Assembly: GCF_001419765.1 (NCBI RefSeq)
Contig: NZ_LIRK01000126.1
Coordinates: 1 to 64,000, forward strand
DNA length: 64,000 bases
Direction: 5' to 3'
Origin: Streptomyces torulosus
Lineage (GTDB): Bacteria > Actinomycetota > Actinomycetes > Streptomycetales > Streptomycetaceae
Below, piece after piece: positions 39,386-48,545 of this stretch. The notes under the pieces are model-generated. The model did no database searches. It worked only from the letters and a program-made list of their open reading frames with translations, and had not been told where the DNA came from. The stretch's first letter is position 1; the number at the start of each line of letters is the position of its first letter. The translations under genes were made by a program, and so were the position numbers.

Positions 39386-40204
39386 GTGAACGACCAGCCG
39401 AACCACCCGGACGGGCTCAAGGCCGAACTGCTGGAGATCGCCCTGGAGGCGGCCCACCGCGCGGGCGCCTTCCTCCACGACGGCCGACCCGAGGACCTCG
39501 GGGTGGCCGCCACCAAGTCCAGCGCGGTCGACGTCGTCACCGAGATGGACATCGCCTCCGAGAAGCTGATCACCGGCCTGCTGGCCGAGCGCAGGCCGCA
39601 CGACGGCGTGCTCGGCGAGGAGGGCGCCAGCGTCGAGGGCACCAGCGGTGTCCAGTGGGTGATCGACCCGATCGACGGCACCGTCAACTACCTGTACGGC
39701 CTGCCGAGCTGGGCCGTGTCCATAGCGGCCCGCGTGGACGGCGAGACGGTCGTCGGCGTGGTCCACGCCCCCGTGCGCGGCGAGACCTACCGCGCGGTCC
39801 TCGGCGAGGGCGCGTACGTGAACGACCGCCCCGCGCGCGTGCGGCCCGCCCCCGCCCCCGCGCTGGCCCTGGTCGGCACGGGCTTCGGCTACCGCGCCGA
39901 GCGCCGGGCCAGGCAGGCCGACGTGCTGCGCGAGCTGATCCCCGAGGTCCGCGACATCCGCCGCGGCGGCTCGGCCGCGATCGACCTGTGCGACGTCGCC
40001 GTGGGCCGCCTGGACGCGTACTACGAGCGCGGCCTGAACGCCTGGGACTACGCGGCGGGCGACCTCATCGCCCGGGAGGCGGGCGCCCTGACCGGTGGAC
40101 GCCCCGGACAGCCCCTCTCACCCGACCTGACCATCGCCGCCCCACCCGGCCTCTTCGAGGCCCTCCAGACCCGCCTGGAGGAGCTCGGCGCCTGGCACGA
40201 CTGA
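39386..40204 (+). CDS. Inositol monophosphatase family protein
   Basis: This 272-residue Mg2+-dependent phosphatase hydrolyses inositol monophosphate or a related sugar phosphate. The metal-binding motifs are GEEGAS (Glu near residue 75), WVIDPIDGTVNY (Asp, Ile, Asp, Gly; near 90-101) and NAWDYAAGDLIAREAG (Asp near 215). The GTG at 39386 has GAGGAG right upstream, within the end of the ferrochelatase gene region, so they are one operon. The physiological substrate (inositol-1-P, histidinol-P or FBP) cannot be told from sequence. Confidence 0.92.
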   Translation: MNDQPNHPDGLKAELLEIALEAAHRAGAFLHDGRPEDLGVAATKSSAVDVVTEMDIASEKLITGLLAERRPHDGVLGEEGASVEGTSGVQWVIDPIDGTVNYLYGLPSWAVSIAARVDGETVVGVVHAPVRGETYRAVLGEGAYVNDRPARVRPAPAPALALVGTGFGYRAERRARQADVLRELIPEVRDIRRGGSAAIDLCDVAVGRLDAYYERGLNAWDYAAGDLIAREAGALTGGRPGQPLSPDLTIAAPPGLFEALQTRLEELGAWHD

Positions 40205-40242
40205 GCGGGCCGGCGGCGGCACGCGTAAGCGGCACACAAAAG

Positions 40243-40277
40243 AGCGGGACCCCAGGCCGGCTGCCTGGGGTCCCGCT
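40243..40277. terminator. Strong bidirectional terminator
   Basis: A perfect 15-base stem, AGCGGGACCCCAGGC with GCCTGGGGTCCCGCT, has a 5-base loop. It lies between the inositol phosphatase gene and the opposing small gene. Confidence 0.9.
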
Positions 40278-40297
40278 GTCGTTCGCGTGGGTCCGGA

Positions 40298-40471
40298 TCA
40301 GACGCTGAACGCGCCGACCTCCACACCGTGGTCGGCGGCGAGGCGGTGCAGGTCGTCGAGCTCGGCCTGCTCCACTTCGACGAGGAAGTCGTCGCCCTCG
40401 TCACGAGCCCTGGTCAGGTCGGACTCGGTCGCCCTTATGCGCTGCAGAAGTCCTGCGGTGAATGCGTCCAT
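40298..40471 (-). CDS. Small conserved helical protein, 57 residues
   Basis: The product begins MDAFTAGLLQRIRATESDLTR in two parts (MDAFTAGLLQRI, RATESDLTR). It is predicted to be one or two charged helices and ends in VEVGAFSV. The ATG at 40471 has a GAGGGGGC ribosome site. The codon use and the terminator just after it support a real gene. Similar short proteins accompany cutRS in Streptomyces. The function is unknown. Confidence 0.72.
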   Translation of the reverse strand: MDAFTAGLLQRIRATESDLTRARDEGDDFLVEVEQAELDDLHRLAADHGVEVGAFSV

Positions 40472-40875
40472 GCTGCGCCCCCTCGTCCTGGTCGTGGGTC
40501 GATGGCACGGGGGTGTGCCGGTTCGGAAGGGACGATCACGCTTCTTGTGGATGCCCAGCGCCACCCGTGCCGGGCGGCGTCGGTGCCGGACACCCACGCC
40601 CGCTCTGCGGAAAGCGGATCGCCGTGTACCGCATGGTGGTGCGGCACAAGCAGAGCGTGATCGCGGGGTGTAAAGCCTGTCCTCCCCTCGCCGTCTCGGA
40701 CGGAAACCTCAACCGGACGAAAAAATCCCGCATTCCCGGTCGGCTCCGGGCAGGAGATCGCCTTACCGCCGACTTACGGCCGAAAAAGGCAGGATGGAGG
40801 TCACACACCCACGAACACCCTGCCTGTGTGCGCCTTCGGCGCGCTACGCGGGTGGACACAGGAAGGACAAGCGAC
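40472..40875. other. Promoter region of cutRS and the small gene
   Basis: No credible gene lies in these 404 bases. The part nearer cutR (about 40690-40800) is A-rich compared with its surroundings. The divergent promoters should be here. Confidence 0.4.
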
Positions 40876-41529
40876 GTGCGCGTACTCGTCGTCGAGGACG
40901 AGCAGCTGCTCGCCGATGCGGTGGCCACCGGACTGCGCCGGGAGGCCATGGCCGTCGACGTCGTGTACGACGGAGCGGCCGCCCTGGAGCGCATCGGCGT
41001 CAACGACTACGACGTGGTCGTCCTCGACCGCGACCTCCCCCTCGTCCACGGCGACGACGTCTGTCGCAAGCTCGTCGAGCTGGGCCTGCCCACGCGCGTG
41101 CTGATGCTCACCGCGTCCGGCGACGTCAGCGACCGCGTCGAGGGCCTGGAGATCGGCGCCGACGACTATCTGCCCAAGCCGTTCGCCTTCAGTGAGCTGA
41201 TCGCGCGCGTGCGGGCCCTCGGCCGGCGGACGAGCGTGCCCCTGCCGCCGGTCCTGGAGCGCGCCGGGATCAAGCTCGACCCCAACCGCCGCGAGGTCTT
41301 CCGCGACGGCAAGGAGGTCCAGCTCGCGCCCAAGGAGTTCGCGGTCCTGGAGGTGCTGATGCGCAGCGAGGGCGCCGTCGTCTCCGCGGAGCAGCTGCTG
41401 GAGAAGGCCTGGGACGAGAACACCGACCCGTTCACCAACGTCGTCCGCGTCACCGTCATGACGCTGCGCCGCAAGCTCGGCGAGCCACCGGTGATCGTCA
41501 CCGTGCCCGGCTCCGGCTACCGGATCTGA
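40876..41529 (+). CDS. cutR: Response regulator CutR (OmpR family)
   Basis: The 217-residue regulator matches Streptomyces CutR in length and sequence. Its receiver domain has VEDEQLL (acidic pocket), phospho-acceptor Asp in VVVLDRDLPL (near residue 51) and Lys in YLPKPFAF. The C-terminal winged helix (about 120-217) includes PKEFAVLEVLMRSEGAVVSA and TVMTLRRKLGEPP. It starts at GTG 40876 with GGAAGGA upstream. CutRS of Streptomyces is linked to repression of antibiotic production and, more recently, to secretion or envelope stress. Confidence 0.95.
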   Translation: MRVLVVEDEQLLADAVATGLRREAMAVDVVYDGAAALERIGVNDYDVVVLDRDLPLVHGDDVCRKLVELGLPTRVLMLTASGDVSDRVEGLEIGADDYLPKPFAFSELIARVRALGRRTSVPLPPVLERAGIKLDPNRREVFRDGKEVQLAPKEFAVLEVLMRSEGAVVSAEQLLEKAWDENTDPFTNVVRVTVMTLRRKLGEPPVIVTVPGSGYRI

Positions 41530-41534
41530 TCGCC

Positions 41535-42794
41535 ATGGCCACGACCCCGGCACCCCCCGCAGCTCCGCCCAAGCCCACCTGGGACCCCCAGCGGCCGCAG
41601 GTCCCGTTCCCGTGGCTGCGCCCGACCATCCGCATACGGCTCACGCTGCTGTACGGCGGCATGTTCCTGATCGCCGGCATCCTGCTGCTGTCGATCATCT
41701 ATCTGCTGGCCGCCCAGGCGATCAACACCGGCAACCAGCCACTGTTCAAGATCGTCGGCGGCGATCGCATCAGCGTCTCCAGCGAGCAGTGCCCCGCCGT
41801 CGACGCCGACTCGTCGGTCAACGTCCCGCTCACCGACTTCAACGCGGCGATCGCCAACTGCATCGACGACCAGCGCCGGGCCGCCCTGGACGCCCTGCTC
41901 AGCCGCTCGCTGCTGGCCCTGCTGGGGCTCGCCGTGATCGCGTTCGCCTTCGGCTACGCGATGGCGGGCCGGGTGCTCGCACCGCTCGGCCGCATCACGC
42001 GCACCGCGCGCGCGGTGGCCGGGTCGGACCTCTCCCGCCGTATCGAGCTGGACGGGCCGGACGACGAGCTGAAGGAGCTGGCGGACACCTTCGACGACAT
42101 GCTGGAGCGGCTCCAACGGGCCTTCACGGCCCAGCAGCGCTTCGTCGGCAACGCCTCGCACGAGCTGCGCACCCCCCTGGCGATCAACCGCACGCTGCTG
42201 GAGGTGCACCTCTCCGATCCGAACGCGCCCGCGGAGCTGCAACAGCTGGGCAAGACCCTGCTGGCCACCAACGAGCGCAGCGAGCAGCTCGTCGAGGGGC
42301 TGCTGCTGCTCGCCCGCAGCGACAACCAGATCGTCGAGCGCAAGCCCGTGGACCTCGCCGAGGTCGCCTCCCAGGCCGTCGACCAGGTGCACGCCGAGGC
42401 GGACGCCAAGAAGGTGGAGATCCGCGGCGAGCGGGCTCCTGCGGTCGTCCAGGGCAACGGCGTCCTGCTGGAGCGGATCGCGCTGAACCTCGTCCAGAAC
42501 GCCGTCCGGTACAACGTGCCGGGGCCGGGCGGCTGGGTCGAGGTGACGACGGAGCTCCAGCAGGGCCAGGCGGTCCTCGTGGTCACGAACACCGGCCCCG
42601 TGGTGCCGGCGTACGAGATCGACAACATCTTCGAACCGTTCCGGCGGCTGCGGACGGAGCGCACGGGAAGCGACAAGGGCGTGGGCCTCGGCCTGTCGAT
42701 CGTCCGGTCCGTGGCCCGCGCGCACGGCGGCCACATCGCCGCCCAGCCACGTGAAGGGGGCGGGCTGGTGATGCGCGTGACCCTGCCCGTCTGA
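41535..42794 (+). CDS. cutS: Sensor histidine kinase CutS
   Basis: The 419-residue membrane kinase is the partner of CutR, 5 bases upstream. Transmembrane helix 1 is near residues 32-55. An extracellular loop of about 65 residues contains two cysteines (SSEQCPAV and AIANCIDD). Helix 2 lies near 118-140, and a HAMP domain follows (RVLAPLGRITRTARAVAGSD). The H box is NASHELRTPLAINRTLL. ATPase motifs are NLVQNAVRYN (N), EPFRRLRTERTG (F) and KGVGLGLSIV (G). The pair of exported cysteines could sense redox or disulfide state; that is an inference. Confidence 0.95.
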   Translation: MATTPAPPAAPPKPTWDPQRPQVPFPWLRPTIRIRLTLLYGGMFLIAGILLLSIIYLLAAQAINTGNQPLFKIVGGDRISVSSEQCPAVDADSSVNVPLTDFNAAIANCIDDQRRAALDALLSRSLLALLGLAVIAFAFGYAMAGRVLAPLGRITRTARAVAGSDLSRRIELDGPDDELKELADTFDDMLERLQRAFTAQQRFVGNASHELRTPLAINRTLLEVHLSDPNAPAELQQLGKTLLATNERSEQLVEGLLLLARSDNQIVERKPVDLAEVASQAVDQVHAEADAKKVEIRGERAPAVVQGNGVLLERIALNLVQNAVRYNVPGPGGWVEVTTELQQGQAVLVVTNTGPVVPAYEIDNIFEPFRRLRTERTGSDKGVGLGLSIVRSVARAHGGHIAAQPREGGGLVMRVTLPV

Positions 42795-42855
42795 GAAAAT
42801 GTGCCGGCTTCCGGGACATGTTCGCTTCACGCGGAATTTCCCGGAGGGCCCATGA

Positions 42856-42901
42856 GTTCTGATCAGAACAGTCGCGCACGACCAATGTGTGATCGATCAC
42901 A
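42856..42901. promoter_or_regulatory. Pair of perfect 14-bp palindromes
   Basis: GTTCTGATCAGAAC (42856-42869) and TGTGATCGATCACA (42888-42901) are both perfect palindromes. Their centres are 32 bases apart, about three helical turns, so a protein could bind both on one face of the DNA. The second recalls a Crp-like site but with a 4-base instead of 6-base centre. Confidence 0.55.
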
Positions 42902-43025
42902 TGGGCGAATATTCAGCCATCTACTAAGCGTGATCATGTGCCTGTCGGAACGCCGGGAACATCCGGGTTTTCGGGGGTTGAGATCACGGGAAGTACATGC
43001 TGAGGCGCCTTTGAAAGCAGCCTGA

Positions 43026-43041
43026 GGACCGTGTACGGTCC
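43026..43041. promoter_or_regulatory. 16-bp inverted repeat upstream of the DUF4193 gene
   Basis: GGACCGT and ACGGTCC (7-base arms) flank GT. The site lies 164 bases before the DUF4193 start. It could be a repressor site or a small hairpin. Confidence 0.45.
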
Positions 43042-43205
43042 GGTTCGCCATCCAAGCCGATCACTCTTGAGGGGTCCGGTTGGGTGTCGATTGAGTAACA
43101 GACCTTGATGTGAGGCAAAATCTCCGCCTCAGGTCGGGCACAAGTCCGGCCTCTCACGCGTTAGTGCGCTGGAGACACCGCAGACACCCAGAGGGGGAGA
43201 GCGAC

Positions 43206-43502
43206 ATGGCAACGGATTACGACACCCCACGCAAGACCGACGACGACGTCGATTCGGACAGCCTGGAAGAACTCAAGGCGCGCCGGAACGACAAGTCGAC
43301 CTCCTCGGTGGACGTCGACGAGTTCGAGGCCGCCGAGGGCCTGGAACTGCCGGGCGCCGACCTCTCGAACGAGGAACTGGCCGTCCGCGTCCTGCCCAAG
43401 CAGCAGGACGAGTTCACCTGCATGAGCTGCTTCCTGGTGCATCACCGCAGCCAGCTGGCCCGCGAGAAGAACGGTCAGCCGATCTGCCGCGACTGCGACT
43501 GA
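43206..43502 (+). CDS. DUF4193 family protein
   Basis: This 98-residue acidic protein belongs to DUF4193, a family found throughout actinobacteria and often highly expressed. The N-terminal half is rich in Asp/Glu. The C-terminal zinc ribbon is formed by FTCMSCFLVHHRSQL and PICRDCD (two CxxC pairs). An RNA polymerase- or ribosome-linked role is plausible but unproved. The start has a GAGGGGGAGA ribosome site. Confidence 0.9.
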   Translation: MATDYDTPRKTDDDVDSDSLEELKARRNDKSTSSVDVDEFEAAEGLELPGADLSNEELAVRVLPKQQDEFTCMSCFLVHHRSQLAREKNGQPICRDCD

Positions 43503-43515
43503 GGCAGGGTCGGCC

Positions 43516-44466
43516 GTGACTGGCTCGACCCCTCCTTGGAAGCGCCGCTTCCGCAAGGGGGCGGACCATGGGCCGTACAGCGGCCCTGACGGCGTGCGTG
43601 ATGACGAGCGGGGCTCCTCCGATCCTGGAGCGGCCTCGCTCGAACGTACGTCGGACACGGCGTCGGGGGGCGCCACGGATGAGCAGGGACGCCTGCCCGT
43701 ACCGGTGGACACTCCGGCGCCGGTCGCCAGAAGGCGCGCGGCGGTCGTCCGGGCGAGCGTCAGACAGGGCCTGAGCGTCGGGGCCCGCAAGAGCGGTGAC
43801 CGCGCGCGGGCAGGGCTCGCGTACCTCACCGACCGGATCATCGACATGGCCCCGAGGATCCCCCTACGGGACCTCGCGACCCTGCGCGCCCAGTTCCCGG
43901 GCCTCGGGCCCGAGCAGCTCGCCGACAAGCTCGTGGCGGGCGCCGCGAACGCGTCCTCCACCGTGGGCGCCGGGGTCGGGGCCGCCGCCATGCTGCCCAC
44001 ACCGCCGGCCATGCCCGCGGAGCTGGCCGCCGAGATCACCGGCGTCGCCGCGATCGAGCTGAAACTCATCGCCGAGCTGCACGAGGTGTACGGGGTACGA
44101 CCGCCCGGCAACCTCCGGCAGCGCAGCACCGCCTACCTCGACTCCTGGTCCGGTGAGCGCGGGATCGACGTGACCAGGCCCACGACGATCGACGCGGCGC
44201 TCGGCGGACAGCTGAAGCGGCAGCTGCGCCAGCAGATCATGAAGCGCATGGTGCGCAACCTGCCGAACCTCATGCCGTTCCTGGTCGGGGCCGCCGTCGG
44301 CGCCGTCATGAACCGCCGGGACACCAAGCACCTCGCCCAGCGCGTCCGCAAGGACCTGCGGCGGACCCAGGTGCCCTGGGAGGCGCTGCCGGACCTCCCG
44401 GCGCTGGAGAAGCCGACGGACCCCGTGGCGGTGGCCGAGCTGCCGCAGAACCCCGACGAGGACTGA
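43516..44466 (+). CDS. Conserved hypothetical protein with two hydrophobic segments
   Basis: The 316-residue protein has a disordered N-terminal ~75 residues. A helical domain follows, including IPLRDLATLRAQFPGLGPEQ. Two hydrophobic stretches lie at about residues 148-165 (GAGVGAAAMLPTPPAMPAEL) and 250-265 (LMPFLVGAAVGAVMN). The middle AAEITGVAAIELKLIAELHE recalls EcsC-like proteins, but I cannot confirm that. It starts at GTG 43516, 13 bases after the DUF4193 gene, and is probably cotranscribed. The function is unknown. Confidence 0.78.
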   Translation: MTGSTPPWKRRFRKGADHGPYSGPDGVRDDERGSSDPGAASLERTSDTASGGATDEQGRLPVPVDTPAPVARRRAAVVRASVRQGLSVGARKSGDRARAGLAYLTDRIIDMAPRIPLRDLATLRAQFPGLGPEQLADKLVAGAANASSTVGAGVGAAAMLPTPPAMPAELAAEITGVAAIELKLIAELHEVYGVRPPGNLRQRSTAYLDSWSGERGIDVTRPTTIDAALGGQLKRQLRQQIMKRMVRNLPNLMPFLVGAAVGAVMNRRDTKHLAQRVRKDLRRTQVPWEALPDLPALEKPTDPVAVAELPQNPDED

Positions 44467-44609
44467 CCGCGGCCCTGCGAGACGTGGCAACCCACCGACC
44501 CCCGGAACAAGTCCGCGAACCCGTCACCCCCGGCGACTGTCGCCGACCGTAAGAATCAGGCGAGAAATCAGACGAGAAATCGGTGGTGGCGGGGAAGCCG
44601 ACGCCGCGG

Positions 44610-45071
44610 CTACGCCGCTGCCCTGGCCGCCTCCAGGGCGGCGATCAGCCGCTGCGGCTGCCGGGTCGACAGATACAGGTACGGCGTCGGGTCGGCCGGG
44701 TCCGTGACCGGGATGCGCAGGGCGCCCGGGATGTAGGCGCGCAGCAGCATGAACGCCCGGGTGTCGGCCTTGTACGTGCGCCAGGCCCGCGCCTCCTCGG
44801 CGTCGAGGACCTCCGGCTCACCGAGCGCGCTCACCGGGATCTTCGCCTCGCCCGCGATCAGGGCGCCCCCGACCACGCGGATGCGGACCGAGCCGTAGGA
44901 GCTGGCCACGACCGCCGCTGCGGCGGTGCCGCCCGCCAGACCGCCGAGGAGCGGCAGGGTGCCGAAGGGCAACAGGATCAGGGCCATGGAGACGCCGACC
45001 AAGAGGCAGACCAGCCACCACGAACGGGGCGCGGTGAGGCGTTCTTCGTACGGCGAGGCGGAGAGCTGCAT
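44610..45071 (-). CDS. DUF3093 membrane protein
   Basis: This 153-residue protein of the DUF3093 family has two transmembrane helices near residues 17-60 (WWLVCLLVGVSMALILLPF, then LLGGLAGGTAAAAVVASSYG). A cytoplasmic C-terminal part contains the conserved DPTPYLYLSTRQPQRLI. The role is unknown. The start at ATG 45071 gives the standard family length; the longer frame (to 45254) overlaps the divergent gene. Confidence 0.85.
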   Translation of the reverse strand: MQLSASPYEERLTAPRSWWLVCLLVGVSMALILLPFGTLPLLGGLAGGTAAAAVVASSYGSVRIRVVGGALIAGEAKIPVSALGEPEVLDAEEARAWRTYKADTRAFMLLRAYIPGALRIPVTDPADPTPYLYLSTRQPQRLIAALEAARAAA

Positions 45072-45184
45072 GGCGTCAAGCTTGGCACGGGGAGCGTCGG
45101 CCCCCGGAAATGGGGGCACCCGAGGGGAAACCCTGTCCGCCGGGACGATGGCCGGAGCCTGACGGACGGGTAAGGTCTGCGGCT

Positions 45185-45769
45185 GTGAGAGGTACTTCCG
45201 CGGCCCTGCAGCCCCCGGCGGACGCCACGGCGCCCGTCCGGCACCCCGAGGCACCCGCCCCGGGCGAGCTGCTGGGCGCGCACTACGGGCAGTGTTTCGG
45301 CTGCGGCGACGAGCAGCCCCACGGGCTGCACCTTCAGGCCCGGGCCGGCGAGGGGGTCTCCCTCACCGCCGAGTTCACGGTCAAGGCCGCCCACCAGGGC
45401 GCGCCCGGCCTGGCGCACGGCGGGGTCCTGGCCACCGCCCTCGACGAGACGCTCGGCTCGCTCACCTGGCTGCTGCGCACCATCGCGGTGACCGGGCGGC
45501 TGGAGACCGACTTCGTACGGCCCGTGCCCGTCGGCGCCGTACTGCACCTCCAGGCGGAGGTGACGGCCGTGGCCGGGCGGAAGATCTACGCGAGCGCCAC
45601 CGGGCGCGTGGGCGGCCCCGACGGCCCGCTCGCCGTCCGCGCCGACGCGCTCTTCGTCGAGGTGAAGGTCGACCACTTCATCGACAACGGTCGTCAGGAG
45701 GAGATCCAGGCGGCCATGAACGACCCGGACCAGGCCCGGCGGGCCCGCGCCTTCGAGGTGAACCCGTGA
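45185..45769 (+). CDS. PaaI/hotdog-fold acyl-CoA thioesterase-like protein
   Basis: This 194-residue protein has a hotdog domain (residues about 50-165). Its substrate-site segment is LAHGGVLATALDETLG, where HGG-x(n)-D-E is the usual thioesterase signature. The segment CFGCGDEQPHGLHL near 38-51 is typical of this subgroup. It should hydrolyse an acyl-CoA, but the acyl chain is unknown. It starts at GTG 45185 with TAAGGT 8 bases before it and no ribosome site, so the mRNA may be leaderless. Its stop overlaps the dut start. Confidence 0.86.
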   Translation: MRGTSAALQPPADATAPVRHPEAPAPGELLGAHYGQCFGCGDEQPHGLHLQARAGEGVSLTAEFTVKAAHQGAPGLAHGGVLATALDETLGSLTWLLRTIAVTGRLETDFVRPVPVGAVLHLQAEVTAVAGRKIYASATGRVGGPDGPLAVRADALFVEVKVDHFIDNGRQEEIQAAMNDPDQARRARAFEVNP

Positions 45770-46287
45770 GCGGCGGCCGTACCCCCGTCGACGTGCTGAT
45801 CCGGCGCGTCGACCCGGACGTTCCGCTGCCGGAGTACGCGCACCCCGGAGACGCGGGCGCCGATCTGCGCACCACGGAGAGCCGTGAACTGAAGCCGGGC
45901 GAACGGGCCGTCCTGCCCACGGGAGTGTCCATCGCGCTCCCGGAGGGGTACGCGGCCTTCGTGCACCCTCGATCCGGTCTCGCCGCCCGCTGCGGTGTCG
46001 CCCTGGTGAATGCCCCAGGGACGGTTGATGCCGGGTACCGTGGGGAGATCAAGGTCATTGTGGTGAACCTCGACCCGCGGGAGGCCGTGGTGTTCGAGCG
46101 CTTCGACCGGATTGCCCAACTGGTCGTCCAGCAGGTCGAGAAGGTGCGCTTCCAGGAGGTGGCGGAGCTTCCCGACTCGGCGCGGGCCGAGGGGGGCTTC
46201 GGGTCCACCGGCGGTCATGCCGCCGTGGGCGGCACAACGGGTGGGAATCGATACGCTTCGGTCGTATCCGACCGGGAAGGACAGTGA
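45766..46287 (+). CDS. dut: dUTP diphosphatase (dUTPase)
   Basis: This 173-residue trimeric enzyme splits dUTP to dUMP and pyrophosphate, keeping uracil out of DNA and feeding dTMP synthesis. All five motifs are visible: HPGDAGADLRT (I), PRSGLAAR (II), VNAPGTVDAGYRGEI (III), RFDRIAQLVV (IV) and the Gly-rich EGGFGSTGGH (V). A 20-residue tail follows motif V. It is coupled by a GTGA overlap to the thioesterase gene and followed 1 base later by the DUF3710 gene. Confidence 0.96.
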   Translation: MSGGRTPVDVLIRRVDPDVPLPEYAHPGDAGADLRTTESRELKPGERAVLPTGVSIALPEGYAAFVHPRSGLAARCGVALVNAPGTVDAGYRGEIKVIVVNLDPREAVVFERFDRIAQLVVQQVEKVRFQEVAELPDSARAEGGFGSTGGHAAVGGTTGGNRYASVVSDREGQ

Positions 46288-48382: not shown

Positions 48383-48482
48383 ACGGACGAGGCACCGGCG
48401 GCCGATCCACGGAGGAAGCGCCGACGGCCGGCTCTCAGACGAAAGCGCCGGCGGCCGCTCCTCGGTCGAAGGCACTGCCGAC
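48383..48482. repeat. Degenerate ~28-bp tandem repeats after the DUF3159 gene
   Basis: About four imperfect copies of a unit with the core GAAGCGCCGGCGGCCG follow the stop codon. They lead directly into the long palindrome at 48483-48540. Their boundaries are approximate. Confidence 0.5.
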
Positions 48483-48540
48483 CGAACCACGCGCGAAGGG
48501 GCGCCCGGAGATCTCCGGGCGCCCCTTCGCGCGTGGTTCG
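48483..48540. terminator. 58-bp perfect palindrome acting as bidirectional terminator
   Basis: Arms 48483-48511 and 48512-48540 (29 bases each) are exact reverse complements with no spacer. It begins CGAACCACGCGCGAAGGGGC and ends 5 bases before the stop of the opposing TrkA gene. It is far longer than needed for termination. Confidence 0.85.
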
Positions 48541-48545
48541 GTGGG

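Follow-up and report, generated by a model that had tools for sequence, protein, structure and literature searches.

In the 64-kb window (the whole stretch of DNA that was analysed, 64 000 nucleotides of a Streptomyces torulosus assembly, G000, of 9.85 Mb in 1054 contigs), a 411-bp spacer (42795-43205) separates a sensor kinase gene, cutS, from the gene encoding a DUF4193 protein (Table 1). The name cutS, given in an earlier note on this DNA, appears to fit a gene that follows a response regulator gene and encodes the expected domains. That note had described the spacer as A+T-rich and as carrying a cluster of symmetric sites, which it took to suggest a strongly regulated promoter for DUF4193. 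The spacer is indeed A+T-rich, with 55.5-61 % G+C in 200-bp windows vs 63-79 % in the other, surrounding windows of 40000-46000, and it contains six copies of GATC (14.6 per kb vs 5.9 per kb across the window). Both of the perfect palindromes that the note had listed are present (palindrome 1 and palindrome 2, TGTGATCGATCACA, with centres 32 bp apart), and these are the only ones of at least 10 bp in the spacer; the further TGATCA motif is found as a second copy at 42931-42936, and the GGACCGT and ACGGTCC arms are joined by an imperfect centre. Of 5000 first-order Markov sequences modelled on the spacer, a fraction of 0.0006 had at least two perfect palindromes of 14 bp or longer (mean number 0.03). 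Taken singly, either palindrome is ordinary, since the window contains 15 perfect palindromes of this length or more. A 62-bp perfect palindrome at 48481-48542 probably represents an intergenic terminator hairpin.

Table 1. Features of the cutS-DUF4193 spacer and its flanking genes (window coordinates; identities are mean pairwise values over 110 Streptomyces unless stated otherwise)
Feature	Position	Strand	Remarks
cutS, sensor kinase, upstream neighbour	41535-42794	+	HATPase_c, HAMP and HisKA domains
Box TGTTCGCTT..GCGGAAT, after cutS	42819-42841		Identity 0.767; 0.897 over 30 genomes
Palindrome 1, GTTCTGATCAGAAC	42856-42869		Local, without conservation; 2/110 Streptomyces
Crp/GlxR-type 16-bp site, TGTGTGATCGATCACA, containing palindrome 2 (42888-42901)	42886-42901		TGTG-N8-CACA in 105/110 Streptomyces
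GTGATC word	42930-42935		Identity 0.838; 1.000 over 30 genomes
GATCAC word, opening GATCACGGGAAGTACA	42982-42987		Identity 0.833 for 42982-43000
Inverted repeat GGACCGT-GT-ACGGTCC	43026-43041		Identity 0.917
GATCAC word	43059-43064		Identity 0.841
Block A, GGGTGTCGATTGAGTAACAG	43082-43101	+	Streptomycetaceae-restricted
P1 candidate -35, TTGAGT	43091-43096	+	19-nt spacer to -10
P1 -10, CAAAAT (often CACAAT in the class), probably housekeeping	43116-43121	+	GGCA(A/G/C)AATCT in 109/110 Streptomyces and 43/48 other family loci
P2 -35-like element, GGGCACAA	43136-43143	+	P2 in 107/110 Streptomyces and 45/48 other family loci
P2 -10-like element, CGTTA	43159-43163	+	Rigid spacing to the -35-like element
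Ribosome-binding site, in GAGGGGGAGA	43192-43199	+	AGGGGG invariant in 47 aligned Streptomycetaceae
DUF4193 gene, 98 aa	43206-43502	+	Pfam PF13834, 152.3 bits

Upstream DNA of DUF4193 from 110 Streptomyces genomes, the source genome included, was aligned to obtain a footprint. Across the genus, the spacer has the appearance of a densely conserved regulatory region, in keeping with the regulated promoter proposed in the earlier note. Its most conserved part, 43081-43163, lies outside the palindromes and has a mean pairwise identity of 0.976 (97.6 %). Among 30 Streptomyces genomes with longer flanks, identity over 43081-43165 was 0.990 vs 0.695 at codon position 3 of cutS and 0.824 at position 3 of DUF4193. 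The inverted repeat (as GGACCGTnnACGGTCC) was present in 83/110 Streptomyces and in 0/48 other loci of the family, and block A (as GTGTCGATTGAGTAAC) in 108/110 Streptomyces, 40/48 other family loci and 0/63 class loci. A BLASTn search of plasmids with the spacer returned one Streptomyces record (NZ_CP081497.1, positions 1643729-1644051; 78 % of the spacer, 83 % identity); since it bears this much of the spacer, this 2.8-Mb ‘plasmid’ may be chromosomal or a chromid.

The conserved part contains two candidate promoters in tandem, P1 and P2. The putative -10 hexamer of P1, CAAAAT, has been proposed as a sigmaA -10 element in C. glutamicum (PMC10012870), and the P1-type motif (GGCACAATCT; GGCAAAATCT in the window) was found in 30/63 class genomes vs 3.0 in shuffles. 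Set against a housekeeping pattern of TANNNT and TTGNNN spaced by 16-19 nt, P1 offers CAAAAT at 19 nt from TTGAGT; a simple sigma-70-type promoter scan of 42700-43300 returned no match, P1 included. P2, from which transcription would start near 43171, was found in 42/63 class genomes vs 0.7 in shuffles when a loose pattern was used (GGGCACAA-N15-CGTT with close variants). The strict pattern (GGGCAYRA..CGTT) occurred in 13 of the 32 other families sampled (31 genomes) and the loose one in 20/32, one of which (family f8, locus L189) is doubtful since it overlaps P1. Of the 31 class cases, 29 had 15 nt between GGGCAYRA and CGTT, one had 14 nt and one had 16 nt. Both promoters were present in 19 of the 63 class genomes, at least one of them in 53 and neither in 10. 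The distance between P1 and P2 differs between families and the distance within P2 hardly does, which is the pattern expected of two independent promoters.

Read as GGCAC-N17-CGTT, P2 has the same geometry as ECF promoters of the sigmaR/SigH/SigE type, for which the consensus sequences given are GGAAT-N18-19-GTT (sigmaR, PMC9205884), GGAAYR-N17-GTT (M. tuberculosis SigH, PMC4803200) and GGAAC-N17-18-cGTT (C. glutamicum SigH/SigE, PMC10012870). However, these promoters have A at the third -35 base, where most P2-bearing families have C; the sigmaR/SigH core GGAAY is replaced by GGCAC in the window and in 107/110 Streptomyces, and the A-to-C position lies outside those called tolerated in the available part of the M. 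tuberculosis SigH paper (PMC4803200). Five class loci (L202, L215, L218, L222 and L223) carry GGGAACAA or GGGAATAA, although the copies in L218, L222 and L223 lie further upstream and possibly reflect chance.

P2 also differs from the sigmaR/SigH/SigE promoters in that its exact copies are concentrated at one gene. The source genome has one exact copy, and 118 class genomes yielded 61 (in 50 genomes) vs 6 for a reversed-pattern control; 41 of these precede DUF4193, 19 lie elsewhere (two incompletely checked) and one could not be placed. With 41/61 copies before DUF4193, the exact form is chiefly tied to a single gene; the 19 copies elsewhere exceed the 6 of the control and may therefore mark further P2 targets. 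Such an element could belong to a special sigma factor or regulator, or to a known ECF sigma factor at a promoter locked by other constraints. We put forward only tentatively, as possible but doubtful, the proposal that P2 is an ECF-type promoter that serves a single gene and is marked by a -35 word of its own (GGGCACAA), rigidly spaced before DUF4193 in 13 (strict) to about 20 (loose) families beside Streptomycetaceae and rare elsewhere. This small actinobacterial protein, which is almost universal, would in that case have a sigma factor dedicated to it or an autoregulatory circuit. ShbA was considered as the P2 sigma factor and rejected. The pair GTAACGCT..CGATGA (window ~201-230), which precedes what we take to be hrdB, the principal sigma factor gene, resembles an ECF promoter; this region is presumably the ShbA promoter, and it is unlike P2. 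In the available text of PMC9205884, the ShbA targets given are hrdB and shbA only.

Upstream of the promoters, palindrome 2 keeps a near-constant position in the Streptomyces alignment, ~318 bp before the start codon. Conservation spans 16 bp (-320 to -305) and falls off on either side, and the centre of this element is one base left of that of the 14-bp palindrome. The comparison between related species that the earlier note had proposed for the palindromes goes against palindrome 1 and favours palindrome 2, the latter as a 16-bp site. Among other Streptomycetaceae (44 primary loci from 16 genera, many of them close relatives), TGTG-N8-CACA was present in 25/44, while the 14-mer was found in 0/44 and TGTG-N6-CACA in 2/44. 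The shorter GTG-N8-CAC occurred in 36/44 vs 3.4 in shuffles, and a stronger Crp pattern in 34/44 vs 0.15. Counted by genus, TGTG-N8-CACA was present in 9 of the 16 and the stronger pattern in 11; neither was found in 5. Other spacings from 3 to 13 reached at most 3/44 in these loci and at most 4/110 in Streptomyces, except for N6 at 87/110, which is palindrome 2 overlapping the 16-bp site. Substitutions such as TGTGATGAACATCACA and TGTGACCAAGTTCACA preserve the N8 spacing, and some of the other Streptomycetaceae loci have the classical TGTGA-N6-TCACA form. The Crp pattern was missing between -335 and -285 in 5/110 Streptomyces. In the source genome, TGTGNGATCGANCACA occurs once.

The 16-bp element has half-sites of the Crp/GlxR pattern, GTG-N8-CAC, at fixed spacing, which lends weight to Crp, one of two regulators that the earlier note had singled out, and Crp is predicted to bind 42886-42901. 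The other, CutR, is unlikely to be the binder, because its published motif, TAWATAAA (PMC12802291), was not found on either strand of the spacer, although cutS adjoins it. Published patterns are GTG-N6-GNCAC for S. coelicolor Crp (SCO3571) and GTG-N8-CAC for C. glutamicum GlxR (PMC10033298). The GlxR pattern fits the Streptomyces element, whereas the S. coelicolor consensus wants G where 92/110 Streptomyces elements have A. Outside the family, a Crp-like pattern within 450 bp was found in 5/63 class genomes vs 0.27 in shuffles; Crp input is therefore not general in the rest of the class. Two loci of distant families have a Crp-like site near P1 (L189, site at -172 and P1 at -138; L210, site at -170 and P1 at -112), a hint at several separate gains or relocations of Crp control over DUF4193.

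The M. tuberculosis ortholog, Rv2699c, belongs to the same gene family and has the same type of upstream site, TGTGA-N6-TCACA. It has the second-highest CRP ChIP peak in Table 1 of PMC4117774, where its consensus CRP site is placed at -62.5 from the start, and it is tabulated among genes with strong changes (ratio 10.42, start 3015010; PMC3898074). In the Streptomyces element, by comparison, the fifth base of the left half-site is T, and the predicted start of P2 is ~277 bp away rather than 62.5 bp. Our search for mycobacterial-type loci demanded a consensus CRP site together with P2 as GGGCACGAA, with a gap of 17-21 allowed. The gap was 19 in 115/118 loci and 18 in 3/118, and a DUF4193-like start lay within 200 nt in 115/118. 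If the layout of these loci is applied to M. tuberculosis, a gap of 19 combined with the -62.5 given in the paper would put its start 9 nt after CGTT.

A close Crp-like protein, which we take to be the SCO3571 protein, was found in 5/5 near-complete Streptomyces genomes (cAMP-binding domain scores of 92-97 bits). It was not found in the drafts of the source genome and of genome G139 (about 1000 contigs each), where the best matches scored 76 and 68 bits, respectively. An assembly gap is the simpler reading; gene loss may be the alternative. These two drafts are also the sole carriers of palindrome 1 among the 110 Streptomyces.

Other explanations of these elements were weighed against Crp control and tandem promoters. 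That the two palindromes form a cooperative operator pair for one repressor, as the earlier note had suggested, would suit their perfection, their shared TGATC, their 32-bp separation (~3 helical turns) and their low joint frequency in simulation. However, palindrome 1 was present in the source genome and G139 only, within an insertion missing from nearly all other aligned Streptomyces, and the 14-mer of palindrome 2 does not extend to the other Streptomycetaceae. Cooperative pairing is unsupported because palindrome 1 is so restricted and insertion-borne, and we regard it as highly improbable. Palindrome 1 is outside the conserved design of the control region; a repeated or mobile element was also rejected, as it has a single location in the source genome. 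As a cluster, the palindromes are half fortuitous; the observation nevertheless gives a good lead towards a conserved promoter. It seems quite unlikely that the 16-bp site is bound not by Crp but by Rex, a redox sensor, or by some other regulator that recognises TGTGA/TCACA half-sites. The S. aureus Rex site, TTGTGAAW4TTCACAA, which is stated to match those of Rex in S. coelicolor, shares the outer half-sites (PMC2883068), but the inner AA/TT are not kept (TGTGTG..ATCACA in Streptomyces; TGTGACC, TGTGATG or TGTGAGG in other genera), and the site of the mycobacterial ortholog is CRP-bound (PMC4117774).

Nearer the gene, P2 might not be a sigma site at all, and GGGCACAA-N15-CGTT might instead be bound as an operator by a dedicated regulator, perhaps the DUF4193 protein itself (autoregulation). 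The preponderance of exact copies at DUF4193, the sole copy in the source genome and a C-terminal cysteine pattern in DUF4193 that resembles a zinc ribbon would all be compatible with this. We nevertheless hold an operator to be unlikely, as the element is asymmetric, CGTT and the rigid spacing suit an ECF promoter and the M. tuberculosis start would fall just downstream of CGTT. Conservation of 43081-43205 could also reflect a structured, riboswitch-like leader RNA that controls DUF4193 after transcription starts. This stretch is predicted to adopt a multi-branched fold (-53.7 kcal/mol) with a closing helix GGGTGTC/GACACCC, conservation reaches the start codon, and 87.7 % of cells form the named pairs vs 28-48 % with partners slid by 1-3 columns, although the fold used in this comparison came from one of the same sequences. 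Yet the fold z-score was only -1.84, with 6/200 shuffles folding equally well, and Rfam gave no match up to E=1. In 47 Streptomycetaceae, both-side changes were seen at 2 pairs vs 3.3 in letter shuffles, the covariation score was 0.068 vs 0.072, paired cells equalled those of shuffles and the RNAalifold covariation term was only -0.53. A leader RNA was rejected as very unlikely on account of covariation not beyond shuffles and the lack of an Rfam match; since compensatory base-pair change does not exceed that in shuffles, we read the conservation as acting at the DNA level.

We consider it reasonably probable that the spacer acts as a composite, DNA-level control region of DUF4193, made up of the tandem promoters P1 and P2 and an upstream Crp-type site. 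This reading builds on the observed conservation, motif identity and spacing, and from these we infer that Crp binds, which sigma classes are used, where transcription starts and in which direction control works. At P1, the principal sigma factor would probably read the -10 element, and at P2 an ECF-type sigma factor would probably read GGGCACAA-N15-CGTT. The dimer site TGTG-N8-CACA, centred at 42893.5, would make the gene responsive to cAMP or nutrient supply. Mycobacteria have their Crp site 19 bp (rarely 18) upstream of P2, a position common in direct activation. The Streptomyces site is distant from both P1 and P2, and because it lies so far from the predicted P2 start, it may act by looping of the DNA, through partner proteins or on a further, upstream promoter that escaped notice. 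Additional proteins may bind at GGACCGT/ACGGTCC, GTGATC/GATCAC and block A.

The gene under this control was found in 159/159 genomes of the genus and in 192/197 sampled class genomes (173/173 of those of good quality). Extra copies were seen in some Streptomycetaceae (L168, L178, L182, L185 and genus g103), and genome G386 gave six matches, some of them partial; among four second-copy upstream regions, that of L168 retains GGGCACAA..CGTTAC and three are without P2. Two AlphaFold runs on the protein gave low mean pLDDT values (57.9 and 55.4), a PDB sequence search returned one match (E 0.69) and NCBIfam returned none. Literature searches gave no description of DUF4193 function among the matches listed, and the titles and abstract openings of the matches listed described neither a promoter before DUF4193/Rv2699c/SCO5864 nor a role of Crp with cutS. 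The deep conservation of the control region suggests that the dose and timing of DUF4193 are important. Its make-up also suggests a link between DUF4193 and cAMP/Crp in Streptomyces, as in mycobacteria, with the P1/P2 region as a compact promoter carrying an ECF-like element.
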